A stretch of 64,000 bases of DNA from Chloroflexi bacterium OLB15 (GTDB lineage: Bacteria > Chloroflexota > Anaerolineae > Aggregatilineales > Phototrophicaceae), in assembly GCA_001567085.1 (NCBI GenBank), contig LMZS01000177.1:1-64000 (forward strand). Reading direction: 5' to 3'. Position numbers and translations under genes: made by a program. This document shows positions 2,372-61,995 of the stretch, piece by piece. The first letter of the stretch is position 1; each line of letters opens with the position of its first letter. Under the pieces are notes generated by a model. It was not told where the DNA came from. It worked only from the letters and a program-made list of their open reading frames with translations, and did not search any database.

Positions 2372-4338
2372 ATGAGTAGACATATGTGGCGATACGCATA
2401 TCCCGGTTCAGAAGATGAAGCGAAGGCAAACATTTCGTGGAATCTGGTGCGCAGGGTGCTGGCTTATGCCCGTCCCTATCGCAAACAAATAATCATCATC
2501 CTTGTCCTGATTCTGATCCAAACTTTTATCGGGCTGCTTACGCCGCTCATTTTCCGCCAGTTGATTGACGTGACTCTGCCGGAAGGAAACGCCGATCAGT
2601 TGAACATACTGGCGTTGGGGCTGGTGGCAATCCCCCTGTTTAGCAGCCTGATTGGCATCATCATCCGCCGTCTTGATTCTGCGGTCGGGGAAGGTGTCAT
2701 TTACCGGCTGCGCTTTCAGCTTTACGCACACTTGCAGCGCATGTCGCTGCGTTTCTTCACGCATACCAAATCTGGCGAATTGATGAGCGCCTGAACAACG
2801 ATGTCGTCAACGCGCAAACTGCGATTACCGACACGCTGATCGGCGCGGTCACCAATACGTTCACCGTAATCGCCACTCTCATCGTCATGCTGTCGCTGGA
2901 ATGGCGGCTGACCATTATCGGCGTTGCTGTGCTTCCAGTGCTGATCATCATAGCGCGGCGCGTCGGCAAGCACCTCCGCAGAATCGCCCGTGAACAGATG
3001 GACATCAACGCTGAAATGAACGCGATGGTTGGTGAAACCCTGAATATTAGCGGCACGCTGCTGGTCAAGCTGTTTGGGCGAACTGAATTGGAAACCCAGC
3101 GCTTTGGTGAGCGCGCGGCGCGGGTGCGCGATATCGGCGTTCGTCGCGCCGTTTTAGGCAGTCAATTCTGGGCAATTCTGGGGTTGACCGGCGTGATTGG
3201 CAGCGCGCTGGTGTACTGGATGGGCGGGCATCTGGTACTGGCTGGCGCATTCAGCATCGGCACGATTGTGGCCTTTTCCGCATATCTCGGCCAGTTATAC
3301 GGCCCGCTGCAATACCTGATCAATATTCCGGTAGAGTTTTCCACCTCAATGGTCAGTTTTGAGCGCGTTTTTGAAATCGTCGATCTGCCGGTCGAAATTG
3401 CCGAAAAACCAGATGCGTATGTGCTTACCAACGTGCGCGGCGCGCTCACTTTTGATCATGTTACCTTCAAATACGACAAGGGTGATGAAGGCTTGCTGTC
3501 CGCAGTTAGGCGTTACGGACGCATTGATAACGTAACAACGGTATTATCCGGTAGTTCCGGCGGCGCGGCCAAGCCTGTCGCAGATGACCTTGAAGCCCCT
3601 TCGCCCCATCAGGCACGCGAAACCGCGCTGGAAGACATCTCGTTTGAGATTCATCCCGGCCAACTGGCGGCGCTGGTTGGGCCAAGCGGCGCTGGTAAAA
3701 CGACCATGACCTATTTGATCCCGCGCCTGTATGACCCCACCAGCGGACGCATCTTGATTGACGGGCATGATCTGCGCGATGTACAGCTAGAGGCGCTTTC
3801 CGACAATATCGGCATGGTTACACAGGAAACCTACCTGTTCCATGACACCATACGCACCAACCTGCTGTATGCGCGGCTGAACGCAACCGATGCCGAATTG
3901 ATCGCCGCCGCAAAAGCCGCCAATATCCATGATTTCATCATGGGCATGCCCGATGGCTATAACACTATCGTTGGCGAACGCGGCTACCGCTTAAGCGGCG
4001 GTGAAAAACAGCGGCTCGCTATCGCGCGCGTCATTCTCAAAGACCCGCGCATTCTGGTGCTGGATGAGGCCACCAGCCACCTTGACAGCCAGAGCGAGGC
4101 GCTGATTCAGGAAGCGCTGGAACGCATCATGGCTAACCGTACCAGCATCGTGATCGCCCACCGCCTAAGCACCATTCTCGCCGCTGACCTCATTCTGGTG
4201 ATGGATCGTGGGAGGATTGTTGAGCGCGGAACCCACGCCGAACTACTGGCGCAGGGCGGATTGTATGCCCATTTATATGAAACGCAATTTGAGCGCTCAT
4301 TGGAAATTGAGCGGCCAGCGGATCCGTTTGAAGAATAA
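2372..4338 (+). CDS. ABC exporter, fused permease and ATPase (MsbA/LmrA type), frameshifted
   Basis: The gene encodes a half-transporter of about 655 residues that would dimerise to export lipids, drugs or peptides. The N-terminal part (about residues 30-320) has the six-helix ABC membrane domain. The ATPase part shows Walker A GPSGAGKTT, Q-loop VTQETYLF, signature LSGGEKQR and Walker B ILVLDEATS, then the H-loop IAHRLS. About 50 extra residues, rich in Gly, Ala and Ser, sit early in the ATPase domain after FKYDKG. The frame breaks at about 2788: the first part ends GELMSA-stop, whereas adding one C to the single C at 2788 restores GELMS-RLNNDVV and reads on without a gap. No slippery heptamer is present, so programmed frameshifting is unlikely. 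The substrate cannot be told. Confidence 0.88.
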
Positions 4339-55002: not shown

Positions 55003-55109
55003 CCTCCGCGCAACTGCGGCGAACCGCTGCTCTGGCGCGGTTACTCGTCCCTCGACGGCGACTTGCGTAACCTGCGAATCGCCGTTTTGTTTTCTGAAAC
55101 GGGTTATTG

Positions 55110-56471
55110 ATGGACAACGCACCCCAACTGCTGCTGCCCGGTCAAATGCCATTCAGTCAAGAAGCTGAAGAAGCTGTTCTGGGCGCTATCTTCATTAACC
55201 CCGATGTTTTCTTAACCCTCGCTGCCTTTTTAACCGCAGACGATTTCTATATTTTGCGTCACCAGTACATCTGGGAAGCGCTCCAACGCATCAACTTGCG
55301 TAATGAACGTGCCGACTTTGTGACCGTGCGCGAAGAGCTTCACGCCATCGGGCGGCTGAACGATGTAGGCGGCCCCGGCTATTTGCTGCAACTTGCCAAT
55401 AATACGCCGACCTCAGTTCATGCCGAAATCTACGGGCGGTTGGTCGAACGCGCTTCTGTGCGGCGGCGCTTGCTGGCGGCGGCGGATGAAATTCGCGCGG
55501 TGGCATTGCAGGAAGACCAGCCCATCGAGAAGGTGATCAGCGACGCTGAAACCCGCTTATTCAGTGTTACCGAACGCGGTAGCCGCCGCGATCTGACCCC
55601 CATGCGCGATGCTGTAGGCGAATATTTTGAGCGCATCGAATACCTGATGCAGAACCCTGACGCGCCGTTGGGGCTGCCTACTGGCTTCCGCGATCTGGAT
55701 GAGTTATTCGGCGGGTTGCAGCGCTCAGACCTGCTGATCTTCGCAGGCCGTCCGGGTATGGGGAAAACCAGTTTCTTGCTTTCGCTCGCGCTGAACGCGG
55801 CAAAAGTAGGTGCGCGCATTGCCATCTTCACGATGGAAATGGGCACCGATCAGATCGTGCAGCGTTTTATGTCTATGGAAACCGGCATCAATACCCAGAA
55901 ACTGCGCAGCGGTCAGCTTTCGCAGCAGGAATGGGCGAAATTTGTACAGGCGGTCGGGCGCTTAAGCAGCCTGCGAATCTATATTGACGATACGCCCGCC
56001 GTCTCGCCTATTGAGATGCGCACAAAATGCCGCCGCATGATACACGAACACGGGCTTGATCTGGTGATCGTGGATTACATTCAGTTAATGAGCGCGGGCG
56101 GCGGCTACGAAAACAACCGCGTTCAGGAAATCAGCTATATCAGCCGCAGCTTGAAAGAGCTGGCGCGCGAACTGGACGTGCCCATGTTTTCGGCAGCGCA
56201 GCTTTCACGCGCTGTAGAGCAGCGGCAGGATAAGCATCCAGTGCTTAGCGACCTGCGCGAATCCGGCTCGTTGGAGCAGGACGCCGATATTGTCGCCTTC
56301 CTGTACCGCGATTCGGTGTATAACGAAGCCACAGAATTCCCAAACCGCGCAGATGTTATTGTGGCCAAGCATCGCAACGGCCCTACCGGCACCATATCGC
56401 TGCATTTTGAGCGCTCGCTCACTAAATTTACCGACGCCCGCACCCAGTCGGTTGACCTGAGCAGCCTATGA
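55110..56471 (+). CDS. dnaB: Replicative DNA helicase
   Basis: DnaB is the hexameric 5'-3' helicase at the replication fork. The protein is 453 residues from the ATG at 55110 (the frame opens one codon earlier at TTG). The N-terminal domain has FSQEAEEAVLGAIFINPD and the RecA-like domain Walker A GRPGMGKTSFLL near residue 215. Others: FTMEMGTDQIVQRF, LVIVDYIQLMS (Walker B), FSAAQLSRAVEQRQDKHPVLSDLRESGSLEQDAD and AKHRNGPTGTI. No intein is present. Its stop overlaps the dnaD start (ATGA), followed by the loader gene: a complete helicase-loading operon. Confidence 0.98.
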   Translation: MDNAPQLLLPGQMPFSQEAEEAVLGAIFINPDVFLTLAAFLTADDFYILRHQYIWEALQRINLRNERADFVTVREELHAIGRLNDVGGPGYLLQLANNTPTSVHAEIYGRLVERASVRRRLLAAADEIRAVALQEDQPIEKVISDAETRLFSVTERGSRRDLTPMRDAVGEYFERIEYLMQNPDAPLGLPTGFRDLDELFGGLQRSDLLIFAGRPGMGKTSFLLSLALNAAKVGARIAIFTMEMGTDQIVQRFMSMETGINTQKLRSGQLSQQEWAKFVQAVGRLSSLRIYIDDTPAVSPIEMRTKCRRMIHEHGLDLVIVDYIQLMSAGGGYENNRVQEISYISRSLKELARELDVPMFSAAQLSRAVEQRQDKHPVLSDLRESGSLEQDADIVAFLYRDSVYNEATEFPNRADVIVAKHRNGPTGTISLHFERSLTKFTDARTQSVDLSSL

Positions 56472-57202
56472 GCAGGAAATTCGCGGGCTTTCCAGATGGT
56501 AAAACAGGTAGTTTTAGCCTGCCGACAGAGTTCATCGGCAAGCTGCTGCCTTTAATTGACGACTTCGCAGAGCTGCAAGTCACGATCTTTGCCTTTTACG
56601 CCATTCAGCAGCGTGAAGGCCAGAATCGCCATTTGCGGATTCACGATTTCAAAACGCATCTGCCTTTGCTGCGCGCGCTCACGTTAACCGCACCCAAAGT
56701 TAAGCCGGAAACGCTGCTTGAGCAGGCGCTGGCAGCGGCTTGTAATCGCGGAACGCTGCTGCGCGGCGAAATAGAAGACCCGAAAACTGGCGAAGTGCTG
56801 GATACGCTGTATTTTATGAACACTGAGGCCGGGCGTTCAGCAGTAGCGCAAATTGAGCGCGGCGAGTGGAAACCAACCAGATCAGGGGAAGAAATCGAGA
56901 TTCTTCCCGAACGCCCGAACCTTTTCGGGCTGTACGAGCAGCATATCGGGCCGTTAACGCCAATGATTGCCGATTCCTTAAAAGATGCCGAACGGGATTA
57001 TCCGTCTGGTTGGGCTGAAGAAGCGATTGGCATTGCGGTAGAATTAAATGCTAGAAATTGGCGCTTCATTCAGGCAATACTGGAACGATGGAAGCGCGAA
57101 GGCAAACGCGAAGGAAAGCCGGATGAAACCGCTCAGGAATCTGTTGGACGGGATGGGCAGCGATTTGTCGGCGGACAATACTCAGATTTCATCGAACGCT
57201 GA
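56468..57202 (+). CDS. dnaD: DnaD-domain replication protein
   Basis: The 244-residue protein has a winged-helix-like N-terminal half (GSFSLPTEFIGKLLPLIDDFAEL) and a C-terminal DnaD/DnaB2 domain: LFGLYEQHIGPLTPMIADSLKDAE, then WAEEAIGIAVELNARNWRFIQAILERWKREG, with the signature YxxxxG...W...AIxxA and N-x-R-x-W/F. In Firmicutes DnaD helps load the helicase with DnaB2 and DnaI. Here it is translationally coupled to dnaB and overlaps the loader gene by 80 bases. The pairing supports a loading role. The symbol is by domain and context. Confidence 0.85.
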   Translation: MSRKFAGFPDGKTGSFSLPTEFIGKLLPLIDDFAELQVTIFAFYAIQQREGQNRHLRIHDFKTHLPLLRALTLTAPKVKPETLLEQALAAACNRGTLLRGEIEDPKTGEVLDTLYFMNTEAGRSAVAQIERGEWKPTRSGEEIEILPERPNLFGLYEQHIGPLTPMIADSLKDAERDYPSGWAEEAIGIAVELNARNWRFIQAILERWKREGKREGKPDETAQESVGRDGQRFVGGQYSDFIER

Positions 57203-58511
57203 GGCTGAACAGGAAGATTCTCCCACCTGCCCCACCTGTGGATTATCAAATGTTTGCGGCGGTTTGGGCTATGTGCGCTTTGACCTGCCCGTAGGCGATC
57301 CCAATTTTGGGAAACTGTTCCGCTGCCCGAATTATCGCGGCACGGCAAACCCAGATCGCCGCGAGAAGCTGCGTAAACTGGGCAATCTGGAAGTTTTTCG
57401 CGATAAGACGTTAGACAATTTCAATGCCGCGCCAAGAGAAGCATCATCCGCGCAGCAAAACTCGCTGGCACGCGCCGTTGAAGCCGTCCGCCAGTACGCA
57501 GAGGCCCCAGAAGGTTGGCTGCTGTTAGAGGGGCCTTACGGCTGTGGCAAAACCCATCTGGCCGCGGCAGTAGGCAATGTGCGTTTGGATCGCGAAGAAG
57601 GGGTGATCTTTATCACCACGCCAGATTTGCTGGATTACTTGCGCCAAACCTATGGCAGCACAGCAGAATCTGGTTACGATGAACTATTTGATCGCGTAAA
57701 AAATGCGCCCATGTTAATTTTAGACGATCTCGGCTCAGAGAATCCGAGCGGCTGGGCGCAGGAAAAGCTGTTCCAACTCTTGAATCACCGCTACAGCTAT
57801 GCGCTGCCCACCGTGATCACCACCAATACCGAACTGACCGCGCTTGACCCGCGCATCGCCAGCCGTTTACGCGATGTCGGGGTGATCCGCCGCATCGTGA
57901 TCAACGCGCCCGATTATCGTTCGCCCGGTCATAGCAATATTGGCGCGCTGTGGGACTTCTCGGTCTATCGGGAAATGACCTTCGACAGTTTTGACCCTCG
58001 CAGCGGCCTTTCGCTGGACTATCGCCAAAATCTGGAGCGCGTAGGCTCTGCCGCGTGGGAATTTGCCGAAAACCCATCTGGCTGGTTCTTTCTGATGGGT
58101 GAAAGCGGTACCGGAAAAACCCATCTGGCCGCCGCAATCGCCAATGCTTTTCAGGCACGCGGTGGCAGCGCTATTTTTGTGACCGTGCCCGATCTGCTGG
58201 ATCATCTGCGTCTCACCTTCAATCCCGGCTCAAACGTCAGTTTTGACCATCGCTTCACTGAGGTGAAGAATGCGCCGCTGTTAGTGCTGGATGATTTAGG
58301 CACTGAAAGCGCCAGCGCATGGGCAAAAGAAAAATTATTCCAGATTGTGAACCATCGCTATTTAACGCGCATGGCAACTGTTTTCACCACATCGAAGGAA
58401 CTAGAAGCGCTGGATTCACGCATTCGCACTCGCCTTATTGACCGGCGCATCTGCCGAATTTACGCGATCACTGCGCCATCCTATGCGGAGCGCCTGAACC
58501 AGCGAAAGTGA
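57123..58511 (+). CDS. DnaC/DnaI-type helicase loader with two AAA+ ATPase domains
   Basis: From the ATG at 57123 the protein has 462 residues (the frame opens further upstream inside dnaD). Residues about 35-75 are a Cys cluster (CPTCGLSNVCGG and LFRCPNY), like the zinc-binding N-domain of DnaI. Two AAA+ domains follow. Domain 1 has Walker A GPYGCGKTH (Lys143) and Walker B LILDDLG (Asp201). Domain 2 has GESGTGKTH (Lys332) and LVLDDLG (Asp390). Both pairs are exactly 189 residues apart. Other shared stretches are TPDLLDYLRQTYG / VPDLLDHLRLTFN and EKLFQLLNHRY / EKLFQIVNHRY. Known DnaC and DnaI have one ATPase domain. The operon position after dnaB and dnaD supports helicase loading. Confidence 0.92.
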   Translation: MKPLRNLLDGMGSDLSADNTQISSNAEAEQEDSPTCPTCGLSNVCGGLGYVRFDLPVGDPNFGKLFRCPNYRGTANPDRREKLRKLGNLEVFRDKTLDNFNAAPREASSAQQNSLARAVEAVRQYAEAPEGWLLLEGPYGCGKTHLAAAVGNVRLDREEGVIFITTPDLLDYLRQTYGSTAESGYDELFDRVKNAPMLILDDLGSENPSGWAQEKLFQLLNHRYSYALPTVITTNTELTALDPRIASRLRDVGVIRRIVINAPDYRSPGHSNIGALWDFSVYREMTFDSFDPRSGLSLDYRQNLERVGSAAWEFAENPSGWFFLMGESGTGKTHLAAAIANAFQARGGSAIFVTVPDLLDHLRLTFNPGSNVSFDHRFTEVKNAPLLVLDDLGTESASAWAKEKLFQIVNHRYLTRMATVFTTSKELEALDSRIRTRLIDRRICRIYAITAPSYAERLNQRK

Positions 58512-58520
58512 TATGCGGTC

Positions 58521-59411
58521 ATGACGACCACCTTGCCCCCCTACTCTATGCTTACTGTTACGCAGTACAGCAAACGCAGCCGCCATTCGGTGCGCGAGCT
58601 GCTTTCACGCAACTTTTACACCCACGTGCATCTGGACTGGCACGAATCTGATCAATGGATGGAGTCTGAAAAGGCCATCATCCGGTTGGCTTGGCTAAAC
58701 GGCAATCTGGTCGGCATGATGGCGCTGTCTGAGCCGCTGAACAACACCTGCTGGATACGGCTGGCGGCAGTGCTGGATCATACCGACACCAACCAGGTGA
58801 TGCGCGCGTTGTGGCAGGATGTTGAAAGCGATCTGCGCCAGCGCGGCGTGCAAAAAGTGGCGATACTGATGATCCGCGATTGGGCGATCCCGCTGCTGGA
58901 GCCGATGGGCTTCCGCTTTGAAGAAGAGATCGTCACCCTGCGCCGCGCTGAACGGATTGCCCCTGACGCGCCTCAACTGCCGGATAGCATCTCGATTCGC
59001 CCCACACGCGGCGACGATGTTCAGGCTATGGCGGTTGTTGATCACAACGCCTTTGAACCCCCCTGGCAAATGGCGATTGGCGACATCCATCAGGCAGAGC
59101 GTATCGCTGCAAATGCAACCGTCGCTTTTCAAAACATAGACGGCGTGAATCGCGTGGTCGGCTACCAGATCAGCACCCTGTATTTTGACGGCGCGCATCT
59201 GGCGCGGCTGGCAGTAGACCCGCTCGTACAGAATCAAGGCGTCGCTTCAGCGCTGGTATCTGAAATGCTGCGCTATTTCAACCGTCGGGGCGTATATGTG
59301 GTGACGGTCAACACGCAAGCCACCAATACCGTTTCACAGCATCTGTATCGCAAATTTGCATTCTACCCCAACGGCTATGATCTGCCCGTCTGGGTGAAAG
59401 ACTTAGCATAA
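58521..59411 (+). CDS. GNAT-family N-acetyltransferase, two-domain
   Basis: The 296-residue protein has two GNAT-like halves. The N-terminal half (residues about 10-145) has a degenerate fold with GNLVGMMALSE and QDVESDLRQRGVQKVAILM. The C-terminal half (about 155-296) has IRPTRGDDVQAMAVVDHNAF and the acetyl-CoA site LARLAVDPLVQNQGVASALVSEML. It ends with NTQATNTVSQHLYRKFAFYPNG, the usual beta6-beta7 region. The RimI-like C-half could acetylate a protein N-terminus, but this is not determinable. It follows the loader gene by nine bases, so it is probably in the same transcript. Confidence 0.88.
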   Translation: MTTTLPPYSMLTVTQYSKRSRHSVRELLSRNFYTHVHLDWHESDQWMESEKAIIRLAWLNGNLVGMMALSEPLNNTCWIRLAAVLDHTDTNQVMRALWQDVESDLRQRGVQKVAILMIRDWAIPLLEPMGFRFEEEIVTLRRAERIAPDAPQLPDSISIRPTRGDDVQAMAVVDHNAFEPPWQMAIGDIHQAERIAANATVAFQNIDGVNRVVGYQISTLYFDGAHLARLAVDPLVQNQGVASALVSEMLRYFNRRGVYVVTVNTQATNTVSQHLYRKFAFYPNGYDLPVWVKDLA

Positions 59412-59458: not shown

Positions 59459-59899
59459 CTAACCTATTCCCGCCAACGCGGCTTCAAAAGCCTGCGCTTC
59501 CGCTGGCAGCAAATTCGCATTCAACTGCATCAGCACATTACCATTGGTGTATACATAGACAACGTCCCGGCGGGTTTCTGAGTCGGCACGCAACCGGCTT
59601 ATATAACTCAGCCACGACTGCATCTGGGCGTCGCTGGTGAAGAACAGTACCTGCCCGCCGTCAGGCGCGATTCGATCAATCGCGAAGGTATAGCGATCAT
59701 TAAACGTAAGCGGCGCATCGCGCCCTGCCGTCATATCGCGCACCATGCTGGATACAGGCAGTCCGGCCTGAGAGAAGGCGTTACGAACATCTTCAATATT
59801 GAATTGAGCAAAAGGCTGCGGGGTTGGCGTTTGCTGTCCACATCCAGTCAGTACTAATACCGTTGCCAGAAGACCCACGAACAGGTAACGTTTTAACAT
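59459..59899 (-). CDS. Small lipoprotein, function unknown
   Basis: The 146-residue protein begins MLKRYLFVGLLATVLVLTGC, a lipoprotein signal with LTGC lipobox. A short Thr/Pro linker is followed by a compact domain with FNIEDVRNAFSQAGLPV and, later, DVVYVYTNGNVLMQLNANLL. This layout (a helix-turn at the start, a YxNxNVLMQLN end) recurs in small Chloroflexota lipoproteins, but I do not recognise a named family. It is convergent with the GNAT gene and divergent from the KARI-like gene. Confidence 0.8.
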   Translation of the reverse strand: MLKRYLFVGLLATVLVLTGCGQQTPTPQPFAQFNIEDVRNAFSQAGLPVSSMVRDMTAGRDAPLTFNDRYTFAIDRIAPDGGQVLFFTSDAQMQSWLSYISRLRADSETRRDVVYVYTNGNVLMQLNANLLPAEAQAFEAALAGIG

Positions 59900-59960: not shown

Positions 59961-60962
59961 ATGACCGTGATTTATCACGAAGAAGACGGCAATCTCGCGG
60001 CGCTTCAGGGCAAGCGCGTGAATATACTGGGCTACGGCAATATGGGGCGACCAATCGCCTTCAATCTGCGCGATAGCGGCGTCAGCGTAATCGTCAGCGA
60101 GCCAAGACCAGAGAAGATTTCTCAGGCCGAACTAGAAGGTTTCCTGGTCAAGCCCATCGAACAAGCCGCCGCCGAATGTGAAATCATCATGCCGCTGCTG
60201 CGCGACGAAGATATGCCCAAAGTATATCTGGAATCGGTATCGCCTCACTTGCGGCGGGGGCAGGCGCTCATCTTCAGCAGTTCCTATAACATCGCGTTCG
60301 GGTTCATTGAAGCGCCGCCGTTCGTTGATGTCGGGCTGGTTTCGGCCAAAACGCTGGGTCATGCGGTGCGCGAACGCTTTGTAGATGGGCAGGGATTTGC
60401 CAGTTTCGTGGCTGTAGCGCAAGATGCCACCCGCACCGCATGGGATACTGTGCTGGCGCTTGCCAAAGCGATGGGCGCGCTGCGCGGTGGCGCGGTTGAA
60501 ATCCGTTTTGAGCAGGAAACTGAACTTGACCTGTTCGTTCAGCAAGCCATTTTGCCAATGTTCCATTCAGCGGTTATTCTGGCCGCGCGGCTGCTCATTG
60601 AAACAGGTTATCCCCCCGAAGCAGTTTTCACCGAACTGTATCTTTCCGGCGAAACCTCAGATTATTTACGGCAGGTTTCACAACAGGGCATGATGAACGC
60701 GCTCCAGCTCAATTCGTTGGTCGCGCAGTTTGGCATGCTCAGCCGCTTTGACCGTTTCAATGATTTGAAGATGGAACGCACGATGGAGCTAACGCTCAAC
60801 GACATTCGCAATGGGCGTTTTGCGCAGGAATGGGCTAAAGAATCCAGCGCTGATTACGCCCGCTTACGGCAAATGTTGAAGCAGCGGCAGGCAATGGATA
60901 TCTGGGAACTTGAGCAGCAAACGCTGGAACTGCTGCGTACCAATGGCTATTCAGGTGGTTAG
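59961..60962 (+). CDS. Ketol-acid reductoisomerase (IlvC)-like protein with an altered metal site
   Basis: The 333-residue protein has the IlvC layout: an N-terminal Rossmann domain with VNILGYGNMGRPIAFNLRDSGV and an all-helical C-terminal domain. The family segment VSAKTLGHAVRERFVDGQGF is present with Lys130. In class I KARI the next segment reads ETETDLFGEQ, with Asp and Glu as Mg2+ ligands; here it is ETELDLFVQQ, so Asp190 stays and the Glu becomes Gln194. The second ligand pair (FECLHE in true KARI) aligns with FTELYL, losing both Glu. The AHGFNIH-type loop is SSSYNIA. The fold is kept, but normal KARI chemistry is doubtful. It overlaps trmB by 20 bases. Confidence 0.8.
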   Translation: MTVIYHEEDGNLAALQGKRVNILGYGNMGRPIAFNLRDSGVSVIVSEPRPEKISQAELEGFLVKPIEQAAAECEIIMPLLRDEDMPKVYLESVSPHLRRGQALIFSSSYNIAFGFIEAPPFVDVGLVSAKTLGHAVRERFVDGQGFASFVAVAQDATRTAWDTVLALAKAMGALRGGAVEIRFEQETELDLFVQQAILPMFHSAVILAARLLIETGYPPEAVFTELYLSGETSDYLRQVSQQGMMNALQLNSLVAQFGMLSRFDRFNDLKMERTMELTLNDIRNGRFAQEWAKESSADYARLRQMLKQRQAMDIWELEQQTLELLRTNGYSGG

Positions 60963-61995
60963 CAGCTTGGAACACAATGCCTTGCGAATACGCGCAGCCC
61001 GAAGTGCTGACGCTGTAATACAAAAGTTGAATGCGCTGTCTCTGCCCTGGCCGGCTAACTGGGCTGAAATTTTTGGGGCAGAGCGCCCGCTAATTCTCGA
61101 AATCGGCTTCGGTACAGGCGTATTCTTGCGGCATCTTGTCCGCCAGCATCCTGAGGCGAACGTGATCGGGCTGGAAATCTCGAATCAATGCCTGCTTAAA
61201 GCCGAGCGCATGATCGCCAGAGAAGGCTTGAATAATCTCCGTGTGATCCACAGCCGCGCTGAAACCGCCTTGTATCATCTTTTTGAGCCATCCACGCTTT
61301 CTGAAGTGGTGATCAATTTTCCCGATCCATGGTTCAAGCGCGATCACGGCCATCGCCGCCTGATGCAGCGCGACACGCTGGATGCGATTGTCAGCCGGAT
61401 GCAGGCCGGCGCCATGCTGTATCTAGCGACGGATATCGTGGAATATGCGGAAATGTCCAGCGAACTGCTGGCCGCCACACCCCAATTGATGAATAGATTG
61501 CCTGGCCAGTGGGCGGATATGCTGCCTGGCCGCGTGGTCACCAAATATGAAGCCAAAGCCCGCGCAGAAGGCCGCGACTGTATGTATTTTGTCTATCAGC
61601 GTAACGCCATCCCTGCACCAGTTATCCCAGTGATCAAAGAGTTAGCCATGCCCCATATCGTGTTTCAATCGCCGCTTTCGCCGGATGAGATTCGCGCCGC
61701 CTTCAGGCCATTTGATGCCCATGAAGGGGATATTTATGTCGGCTTTGGTGAGGTATATCGTGGGCGTAACGGTCTGCTGTTCGAGATTCACGCCGCCGAG
61801 CCGACGATTGACCAACATGCCGCGCTACTGCTCACCCCGCACGGGCATACTGCAAATGAATACACCATCCAGCTTTCGACCATCGGGCATCCACGCCCGA
61901 CGCAGGGGATCCATATCGCGGTGAACGCGCTGCACCAATGGATTGCCGGATTAAGCGAAGCGACGACGGTAATTCAGAAAAAGCTGGCAGAATGA
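60943..61995 (+). CDS. trmB: tRNA (guanine-N7)-methyltransferase with a C-terminal extension
   Basis: TrmB methylates G46 in the variable loop of tRNAs using S-adenosylmethionine. The methyltransferase core shows the SAM site LILEIGFGTGVFLRHL, VIGLEISNQCLLKAE, and the signature VINFPDPWFKRDHGHRRL with catalytic Asp, then ATDIVEYAEM. The core ends near residue 225. An extra 120 residues follow (from MPHIVFQSPLSPDEIRAAFRPFD to the end), with beta strands and no motif I can name. The frame opens at 60910; the ATG at 60943 gives 350 residues and overlaps the KARI-like gene. Confidence 0.92.
   Translation: MAIQVVSSLEHNALRIRAARSADAVIQKLNALSLPWPANWAEIFGAERPLILEIGFGTGVFLRHLVRQHPEANVIGLEISNQCLLKAERMIAREGLNNLRVIHSRAETALYHLFEPSTLSEVVINFPDPWFKRDHGHRRLMQRDTLDAIVSRMQAGAMLYLATDIVEYAEMSSELLAATPQLMNRLPGQWADMLPGRVVTKYEAKARAEGRDCMYFVYQRNAIPAPVIPVIKELAMPHIVFQSPLSPDEIRAAFRPFDAHEGDIYVGFGEVYRGRNGLLFEIHAAEPTIDQHAALLLTPHGHTANEYTIQLSTIGHPRPTQGIHIAVNALHQWIAGLSEATTVIQKKLAE

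Follow-up and report, generated by a model that had tools for sequence, protein, structure and literature searches.

The window analysed here is the whole stretch of 64,000 nucleotides at positions 1 to 64,000 of contig LMZS01000177.1 of Chloroflexi bacterium OLB15, a member of the Aggregatilineales. Its open reading frame P0001 encodes a protein of 333 amino acids related to ketol-acid reductoisomerase (KARI, the product of ilvC) and is referred to below as the paralog; the genes around it and the residues discussed below are collected in Table 1. A domain profile search recovered both KARI domains complete (KARI_N, 2.2e-44; KARI_C, 3.9e-21), and the first-pass annotation was right in reading an IlvC two-domain layout with a GYGNMG motif. 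The protein falls short of the two NCBIfam ilvC equivalog cut-offs (239.6 vs 336 bits and 208.8 vs 226.15 bits). An AlphaFold model built from 41 aligned relatives displays the full KARI fold (mean pLDDT 94.0, pTM 0.88). Domain search, model and superposition agree on a Rossmann domain plus a knotted KARI_C domain, and the model superimposes on the KARI 8ep7_C (Z 38.3, rmsd 2.1, 326 residues), on Sso-KARI (6jd2_J, Z 37.1, rmsd 2.2, 325 residues; 6jcv_A, Z 33.6, rmsd 2.3, 322 residues) and on BurG 7pct_A (Z 38.5, rmsd 1.6, 326 residues).

Table 1. Genes and residues at the P0001 locus (positions in the window; canonical numbering is that of the IlvC of the same genome).
Feature	Position	Strand	Remark
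dnaB	55107-56471		upstream of the DnaD-like gene
DnaD-like gene	56468-57202		downstream of dnaB
Tandem IstB/DnaC-type ATPase, 487 aa, two domains	57048-58511	+	between DnaD-like gene and GNAT; conserved in the family
Tandem GNAT acetyltransferase	58521-59411	+	two Acetyltransf_1 stretches; conserved upstream neighbour
Small lipoprotein-like gene	59459-59899	-	between GNAT and P0001; conserved in the genus
KARI-like paralog P0001	59961-60962	+	333 aa; domain matches, clade position, AlphaFold model
Dinucleotide-binding motif GYGNMG, residues 24-29	60030-60047	+	GxGxxG motif read in P0001
beta2-alphaB cofactor loop SEPRPEKI, residues 46-53	60096-60119	+	acidic, without the canonical last Ser
Ser107 replacing canonical His108	60279-60281	+	alignment
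Lys130 (canonical Lys131)	60348-60350	+	kept in the genus; most clade members have Arg or Gln
Glu186 (canonical Glu187)	60516-60518	+	kept; alignment
Asp190 (canonical Asp191, bridges two Mg)	60528-60530	+	kept; 11 of the 91 order paralogs lack it
Gln194 replacing Mg ligand Glu195	60540-60542	+	alignment
Glu225 (canonical Mg ligand Glu227)	60633-60635	+	kept; alignment
Glu231 (canonical Mg ligand Glu231)	60651-60653	+	kept, after a two-residue insertion; alignment
trmB	60910-61995	+	overlaps the 3' end of the P0001 ORF; neighbour in the genus only

P0001 is not the only KARI-type gene of its genome, as one of the refutations named at first reading would require. The source genome carries a canonical ilvC at a second locus (L001; KARI_C 205 bits), where it belongs to an ilv/leu cluster and adjoins an ilvH-like ORF and leuA, with ilvB on the same contig (C12); ilvD was found in the genome as well. 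P0001 is 33% identical to this IlvC and, as was observed at first reading, lies outside any ilv operon. Eight genomes of the order have the paralog and no full class I ilvC match, and they were inspected as potential counter-evidence. One of them is G369, from the same genus and 95% complete, in which ilvB, ilvD, leuA and the paralog are present while class I ilvC is absent; this genome encodes a plant-type class II KARI of 502 aa (L239:1108-2616, minus strand; best PDB match rice chloroplast KARI, 5.7e-201), and class I ilvC has thus been replaced by another KARI despite the presence of the paralog. The paralog is also kept in G330 (92% complete), where no match for ilvB, ilvD or leuA was found. 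In G355, a fragment of ilvC was found at the end of a contig, and no ilvD exceeded the cut-off in G326, G338 and G340. Finally, G303 (86% complete) and G349 (75%) have ilvD and ilvB-type matches and no KARI was found in them besides the paralog; since both genomes are incomplete, the missing ilvC is possibly an assembly gap.

The residues of P0001 were compared with those of the canonical IlvC of its own genome, whose numbering is used throughout and equals, at D191, E195, E227 and E231, that given for Sac-KARI and MtKARI in the available portions of PMC8615647 and PMC5940873. Three of these four Mg ligands are retained, and the alignment confirms that Glu195 has become Gln194. The change reported for the NIH-type loop is also real: the canonical AHGFNIHF reads SSSYNIAF in P0001. 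As a result, only one member of the His108 and Lys131 pair, which we take to be active-site residues of KARI, is retained (Ser107 and Lys130). Ser252 is kept as Ser252. On the other hand, the first-pass statement that the C-terminal FECLHE reads FTELYL comes from a shift of register. In the correct register, GYQPEVAYFECLH--E of the canonical protein stands over GYPPEAVFTELYLSGE of P0001: the helix GYPPEAVFTELYLSGE pairs with canonical GYQPEVAYFECLHE, FECLHE pairs with ELYLSGE, and P0001 has two additional residues between E225 and E231. Both C-terminal glutamates are therefore present, which for this pair is the very outcome that the first-pass annotation had named as a refutation, and the alignment leaves P0001 short of one metal ligand, not of several as had been claimed. 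The same two-residue insertion occurs in Sso-KARI (6jcv, LLEFYASGE), in all 91 order paralogs, in 14 distant relatives and in three intermediate sequences.

At first reading, the altered loop had been listed among the changes to catalytic ligands. However, Sso-KARI has the same Ser and, going by the PDB titles, its structures include Mg2+, NAD(P)H and the KARI inhibitor CPD, so that this exchange is not by itself evidence for a lost activity. The position of Glu195 is a different matter. For spinach KARI, the available part of PMC13430628 names D315, E319 and E496 as the residues that coordinate Mg and places E319 near the alkyl group that migrates; we matched E319 to position 195 by the D-x-x-x-E spacing. 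Likewise, the fungal KARI mutants E264A and D260K, altered at homologous metal positions, have lower activity (PMC8471054, as far as its accessible text goes). Because of these two observations, the ligand at position 195 can be said to matter. As for the cofactor, the acidic SEPRPEKI loop without the canonical last Ser suggests that NADH would be favoured over NADPH in P0001, following the rule for the beta2-alphaB loop set out in the consulted part of PMC5940873.

The paralog is found in 84 of 101 Aggregatilineales genomes and canonical class I ilvC in 85 (two of them partial), with both in 76; these counts derive from the best E-value of each genome, with upper limits of 1e-78 for the paralog and 1e-100 for canonical ilvC, to which the partial G316 was added. 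Among the sampled genomes, the paralog occurs in families f1, f2, f4, f5 and f61 and is absent from f3, f6 and f60. Trees were built from 62 of 156 rows, and from 60 rows after removal of the active-site columns, by quick searches without bootstrap. The order paralogs are united in a single clade (SH-aLRT 100). Groups at the level of families can be recognized within it, a pattern indicative of vertical descent, and the clade persists at SH-aLRT 99 when the active-site columns are removed. P0001 falls within the branch of Sso-KARI (a 45-row group including 6jcv, SH-aLRT 88). Anaerolineae proteins that carry an SCP2 domain at the C-terminus make up the sister group of the order paralogs, Sso-KARI being placed in the wider branch.

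Within this clade the metal site is strongly eroded. The analysis covers 91 distinct order paralogs, including two partial rows (L075 and L167). Position 195 is Gln in 74, His in 14, Asp in 2 and Glu in 1; position 191 is Asp in 80, Arg in 5, Ser in 3, Thr in 2 and Ala in 1; position 227 is Asp in 40, Glu in 32, Ser in 17, Gly in 1 and Ala in 1; and position 231 is Glu in 84, Lys in 4 and Arg in 3. All four ligands occur together in none of the 91, and at least two metal positions are without an acidic residue in 30. On the tree built without these columns, changes recur five times at position 191, six times at 195 and nine times at 227. The cofactor-contact positions G24, G26, G29, D83 and G134 are conserved at 93% on average over the same 91 proteins; the glycines of the GYGNMG motif are retained in 88, 82 and 90 of them, and E187 in 90. 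Canonical IlvC, for comparison, is invariant at every listed position in 43 of 43 sequences, and the four metal ligands are complete in each of the 14 distant relatives that have Ser at 108. A stepwise series can be recognized, since L055, L056 and L058 combine the canonical His with Arg131 and the insertion. No new invariant Lys or His that would mark a new catalytic site was found in the order paralogs. The earlier suggestion of a repurposed reductase or a different dehydrogenase thus finds support in the canonical ilvC elsewhere in the genome, the separate clade, the scores below the NCBIfam ilvC cut-offs and the loss of Glu195 in 90 of 91 members; its argument from the C-terminal Glu pair was wrong.

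P0001 and its closest relative (89% identity) differ with a dN/dS of 0.062, against 0.035 for canonical ilvC in the same genome pair. Across the 25 most similar paralog pairs dN/dS ranges from 0.01 to 0.11, values to be read with synonymous sites near saturation in several pairs and partly so in the more distant ones. By these sequence comparisons the paralog gene is under purifying selection. A few relatives have an in-frame stop (TAA, TAG or TGA) inside the matched stretch. A decaying pseudogene was considered and ruled out in view of the reading frame being open in most relatives, the low dN/dS and the presence in 84 of 101 genomes.

The neighbours of P0001 are dnaB, the DnaD-like, IstB/DnaC-like and GNAT genes, trmB and ExoD, with no malleicyprol-type cluster. 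The usual order in the family to which the genus belongs is dnaB, DnaD-like gene, double IstB/DnaC-like ATPase, tandem GNAT and paralog. Of 97 loci that offer 900 bp or more of upstream sequence, 11 of them from outside the order, 50 have a tandem GNAT gene upstream of the paralog, and in several relatives the GNAT stop and the paralog start share four bases. In a separate tally of neighbourhoods, which left the gene unplaced in eight loci, family f2 retains the GNAT-paralog pair with different genes further upstream, whereas the two genes are not side by side in f4 and in most of f5. This linkage, read from gene order, is suggestive of a function shared with the paralog. The coupling to trmB proposed at first reading holds for the source genome and its closest relative, where the ORFs overlap; in a third genome the two genes are 530 bp apart, and no match for trmB was found at any other of the compared loci. 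The link being limited to the genus, trmB was dropped as a conserved partner. Two of these neighbours have features of their own: TrmB, of up to 361 aa, has a long C-terminal part past the methyltransferase domain (the match ends near residue 224), and the 487-aa double IstB/DnaC-type protein may be a duplicated helicase loader.

Of the known systems closest to P0001, Sso-KARI of Saccharolobus solfataricus (PDB 6jcv series, under the name 'Putative ketol-acid reductoisomerase 2') shares its branch of the tree. Papers in JACS in 2019 reportedly describe KARI activity for it. The two proteins have in common the His108 to Ser exchange, the ASGYNxAFG motif, the insertion before the last Glu ligand and the full fold. 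Unlike P0001, with its Gln194 and Lys130, Sso-KARI has Glu195, all four ligands and Arg at 131. With class I IlvC, P0001 shares the two-domain fold, GxGxxG, D190, E225, E231, K130 and E186; it differs in lacking the His and one Glu ligand, in scoring below the NCBIfam ilvC cut-offs and in the absence of an ilv operon. BurG (PDB 7pcc-7pct) is, in the available text of PMC9359912, likewise a repurposed KARI paralog beside a normal ilvC and has the same fold; according to the same text it was solved with two Mg2+, while P0001 is one ligand down by sequence, and its gene neighbours are different.

The Anaerolineae KARI-SCP2 fusions (L047, L049, L052, L053 and L054) resemble the order paralogs, their sister clade, by having Ser and the SGE insertion; they differ from them in having all metal ligands, Arg at 131 and the C-terminal SCP2 domain. 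The SCP2 Pfam match was obtained for L047 (4e-8) and L052 (2.6e-6); L049, L053 and L054 are of like length and alignment. A small SCP2-like gene of its own (6781-7194 in L051) immediately precedes the KARI-like gene in L051 and L065. Other distant KARI-like genes adjoin xylose-isomerase-like TIM barrels (L064:3461-4309, plus strand; L057:7209-8051, minus strand) or, in L056, a creatininase (L056:8801-9586, minus strand), neighbours that hint at a catabolic role of the wider KARI-like branch. Genome G332 encodes a third, separate KARI-like protein on a long branch (L173:3417-4376, minus strand), with APK changed to VPN and the Glu pair replaced (AYAKAIRSLR); judging from these replacements, it is possibly another repurposing.

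With the metal pocket decayed and the cofactor pocket kept, the paralog very likely has a different job from KARI. Indeed, the normal ilvC of the source genome, the erosion of the ligands, the class II KARI of G369 and the persistence in G330 without the pathway lead us to conclude that in vivo it very probably does not act as a KARI. Our best guess from these patterns is an NAD(H)-dependent 2-keto/2-hydroxy-acid oxidoreductase. The full scenario, to which we assign an evenly balanced probability, would be as follows. An ancient and vertically inherited KARI paralog, from the branch that includes Sso-KARI of Sulfolobus, would have exchanged the Mg ligand Glu195 for Gln or His at the base of the clade within the Aggregatilineales. 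Because the two-Mg centre would no longer be intact, the Mg-dependent alkyl migration would become inefficient. What remains would be a stand-alone NAD(P)H-dependent (probably NADH-dependent) 2-keto-acid reductase or 2-hydroxy-acid dehydrogenase, acting on a substrate presumably outside valine and isoleucine synthesis, with either one metal at the D190/E225/E231 site or a metal-free hydride transfer. Tyagi and colleagues are said to have observed in 2005 that several active-site mutants of E. coli KARI lose the isomerase and keep the reductase activity. Against this scenario stand the three metal ligands of four that remain in P0001, which may thus still perform a weak KARI reaction, and the fact that the homologous fungal mutants carry Ala or Lys, not Gln. 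The lack of a new invariant Lys or His, the clade members with a broken D191 or Gly motif, and G303 and G349, with no KARI found besides the paralog, also weigh against it.

The main rival to a repurposed oxidoreductase is a pseudoenzyme, that is a non-catalytic NAD(P)-binding protein with a structural or regulatory role, possibly as partner of the GNAT protein encoded next to it. Variation of the metal ligands is free across the clade, with D191 lost in 11 of 91 members and changes recurring at positions 191 and 227. Among the 90 rows that have a residue at position 26, the Gly is changed in 8; in L050 the Gly motif is broken (DYTELG). Such broken D191 or Gly motifs suggest that some lineages may have no catalysis altogether, and the four-base overlap with the GNAT gene fits a partnership. 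Since no new catalytic signature, in the form of an invariant Lys or His, has appeared, the pseudoenzyme stays a serious rival. The conserved cofactor contacts, the low dN/dS and the near-universal E187 argue against it, as does, for the GNAT variant, the lack of adjacency in f4 and most of f5, and we consider it doubtful, if possible. That P0001 is a second KARI isozyme tolerating Gln at the Glu195 position appears unlikely. Sso-KARI, from the same branch, has structures with Mg2+, NAD(P)H and CPD in spite of its Ser and SGE insertion, and D190, E225, E231, K130 and E186 are retained in P0001; however, Sso-KARI has kept Glu195, which is found in one of the 91 clade members, a class II enzyme stands in for class I in G369 in spite of the paralog, G330 retains the paralog without a detectable pathway, and P0001 is not in an ilv context.

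Two more specific proposals were weighed. The first, a reaction of a new kind, isomerising or cryptic-redox, with a different substrate, would have a precedent in the cyclopropanol synthase BurG, a repurposed KARI fold that retains Mg and NAD according to the accessible part of PMC9359912, and BurG ties as best structural match (Z 38.5, rmsd 1.6-1.7, 326 residues, 29% identity), with ordinary KARIs within 1 Z. The two Mg2+ present in BurG, as that text has it, contrast with the degraded two-metal site of the clade, and P0001 has housekeeping genes as neighbours, so we hold this proposal very improbable. Least probable of all is that P0001 serves as the ketopantoate reductase of the organism. 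The source genome and its congeners have panB and lack panE (TIGR00745) over the cut-off, panE is absent from 8 of 12 tested genomes with panB and the paralog, and the ilvC product of C. glutamicum is the only ketopantoate reductase there, as cited in the consulted portion of PMC4353338. Nevertheless, a DUF2520 Rossmann oxidoreductase, encoded next to panB-panC in G279 and in three genomes of the genus, could supply the missing activity, five genomes have the paralog without panB and four have it together with panE, and G178 has panB with neither panE nor the paralog. It is because of this DUF2520 gene beside panB, and of a distribution that does not fit, that the ketopantoate role is ranked low. 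The DUF2520 gene was located beside panB-panC, in genomes without panE over the cut-off, on L265 (about 3490-4275, plus strand), L267, L268 and L269, and its product is a candidate ketopantoate reductase on the strength of this position.

Our literature search found no paper on this KARI paralog family, nor on KARI-SCP2 proteins. Overall, we consider it rather probable that the Aggregatilineales possess a KARI-fold family, fixed in several families of the order, that has given up the two-metal centre while keeping its pocket for the cofactor, and that now serves outside branched-chain amino-acid synthesis as a new oxidoreductase or a sensor of NAD(P). If the proposal is true, relatives from the Sso-KARI-like to the SCP2-fused forms lay out the intermediate steps. 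A single pocket of KARI joins a Mg-dependent alkyl shift to a reduction by NAD(P)H, and the way in which evolution takes such a bifunctional site apart can be tested here, since living genomes contain canonical enzymes, intermediates with His and Arg, proteins with Ser, Arg and all ligands, and those with Gln or His and eroded ligands. The value of the paralog is that of a clean, testable case, not of a solved one. P0001 is a real and conserved paralog. In practice, an annotation that goes by homology alone could give such proteins the name IlvC, and this would introduce false second isozymes into metabolic models of the Chloroflexota.
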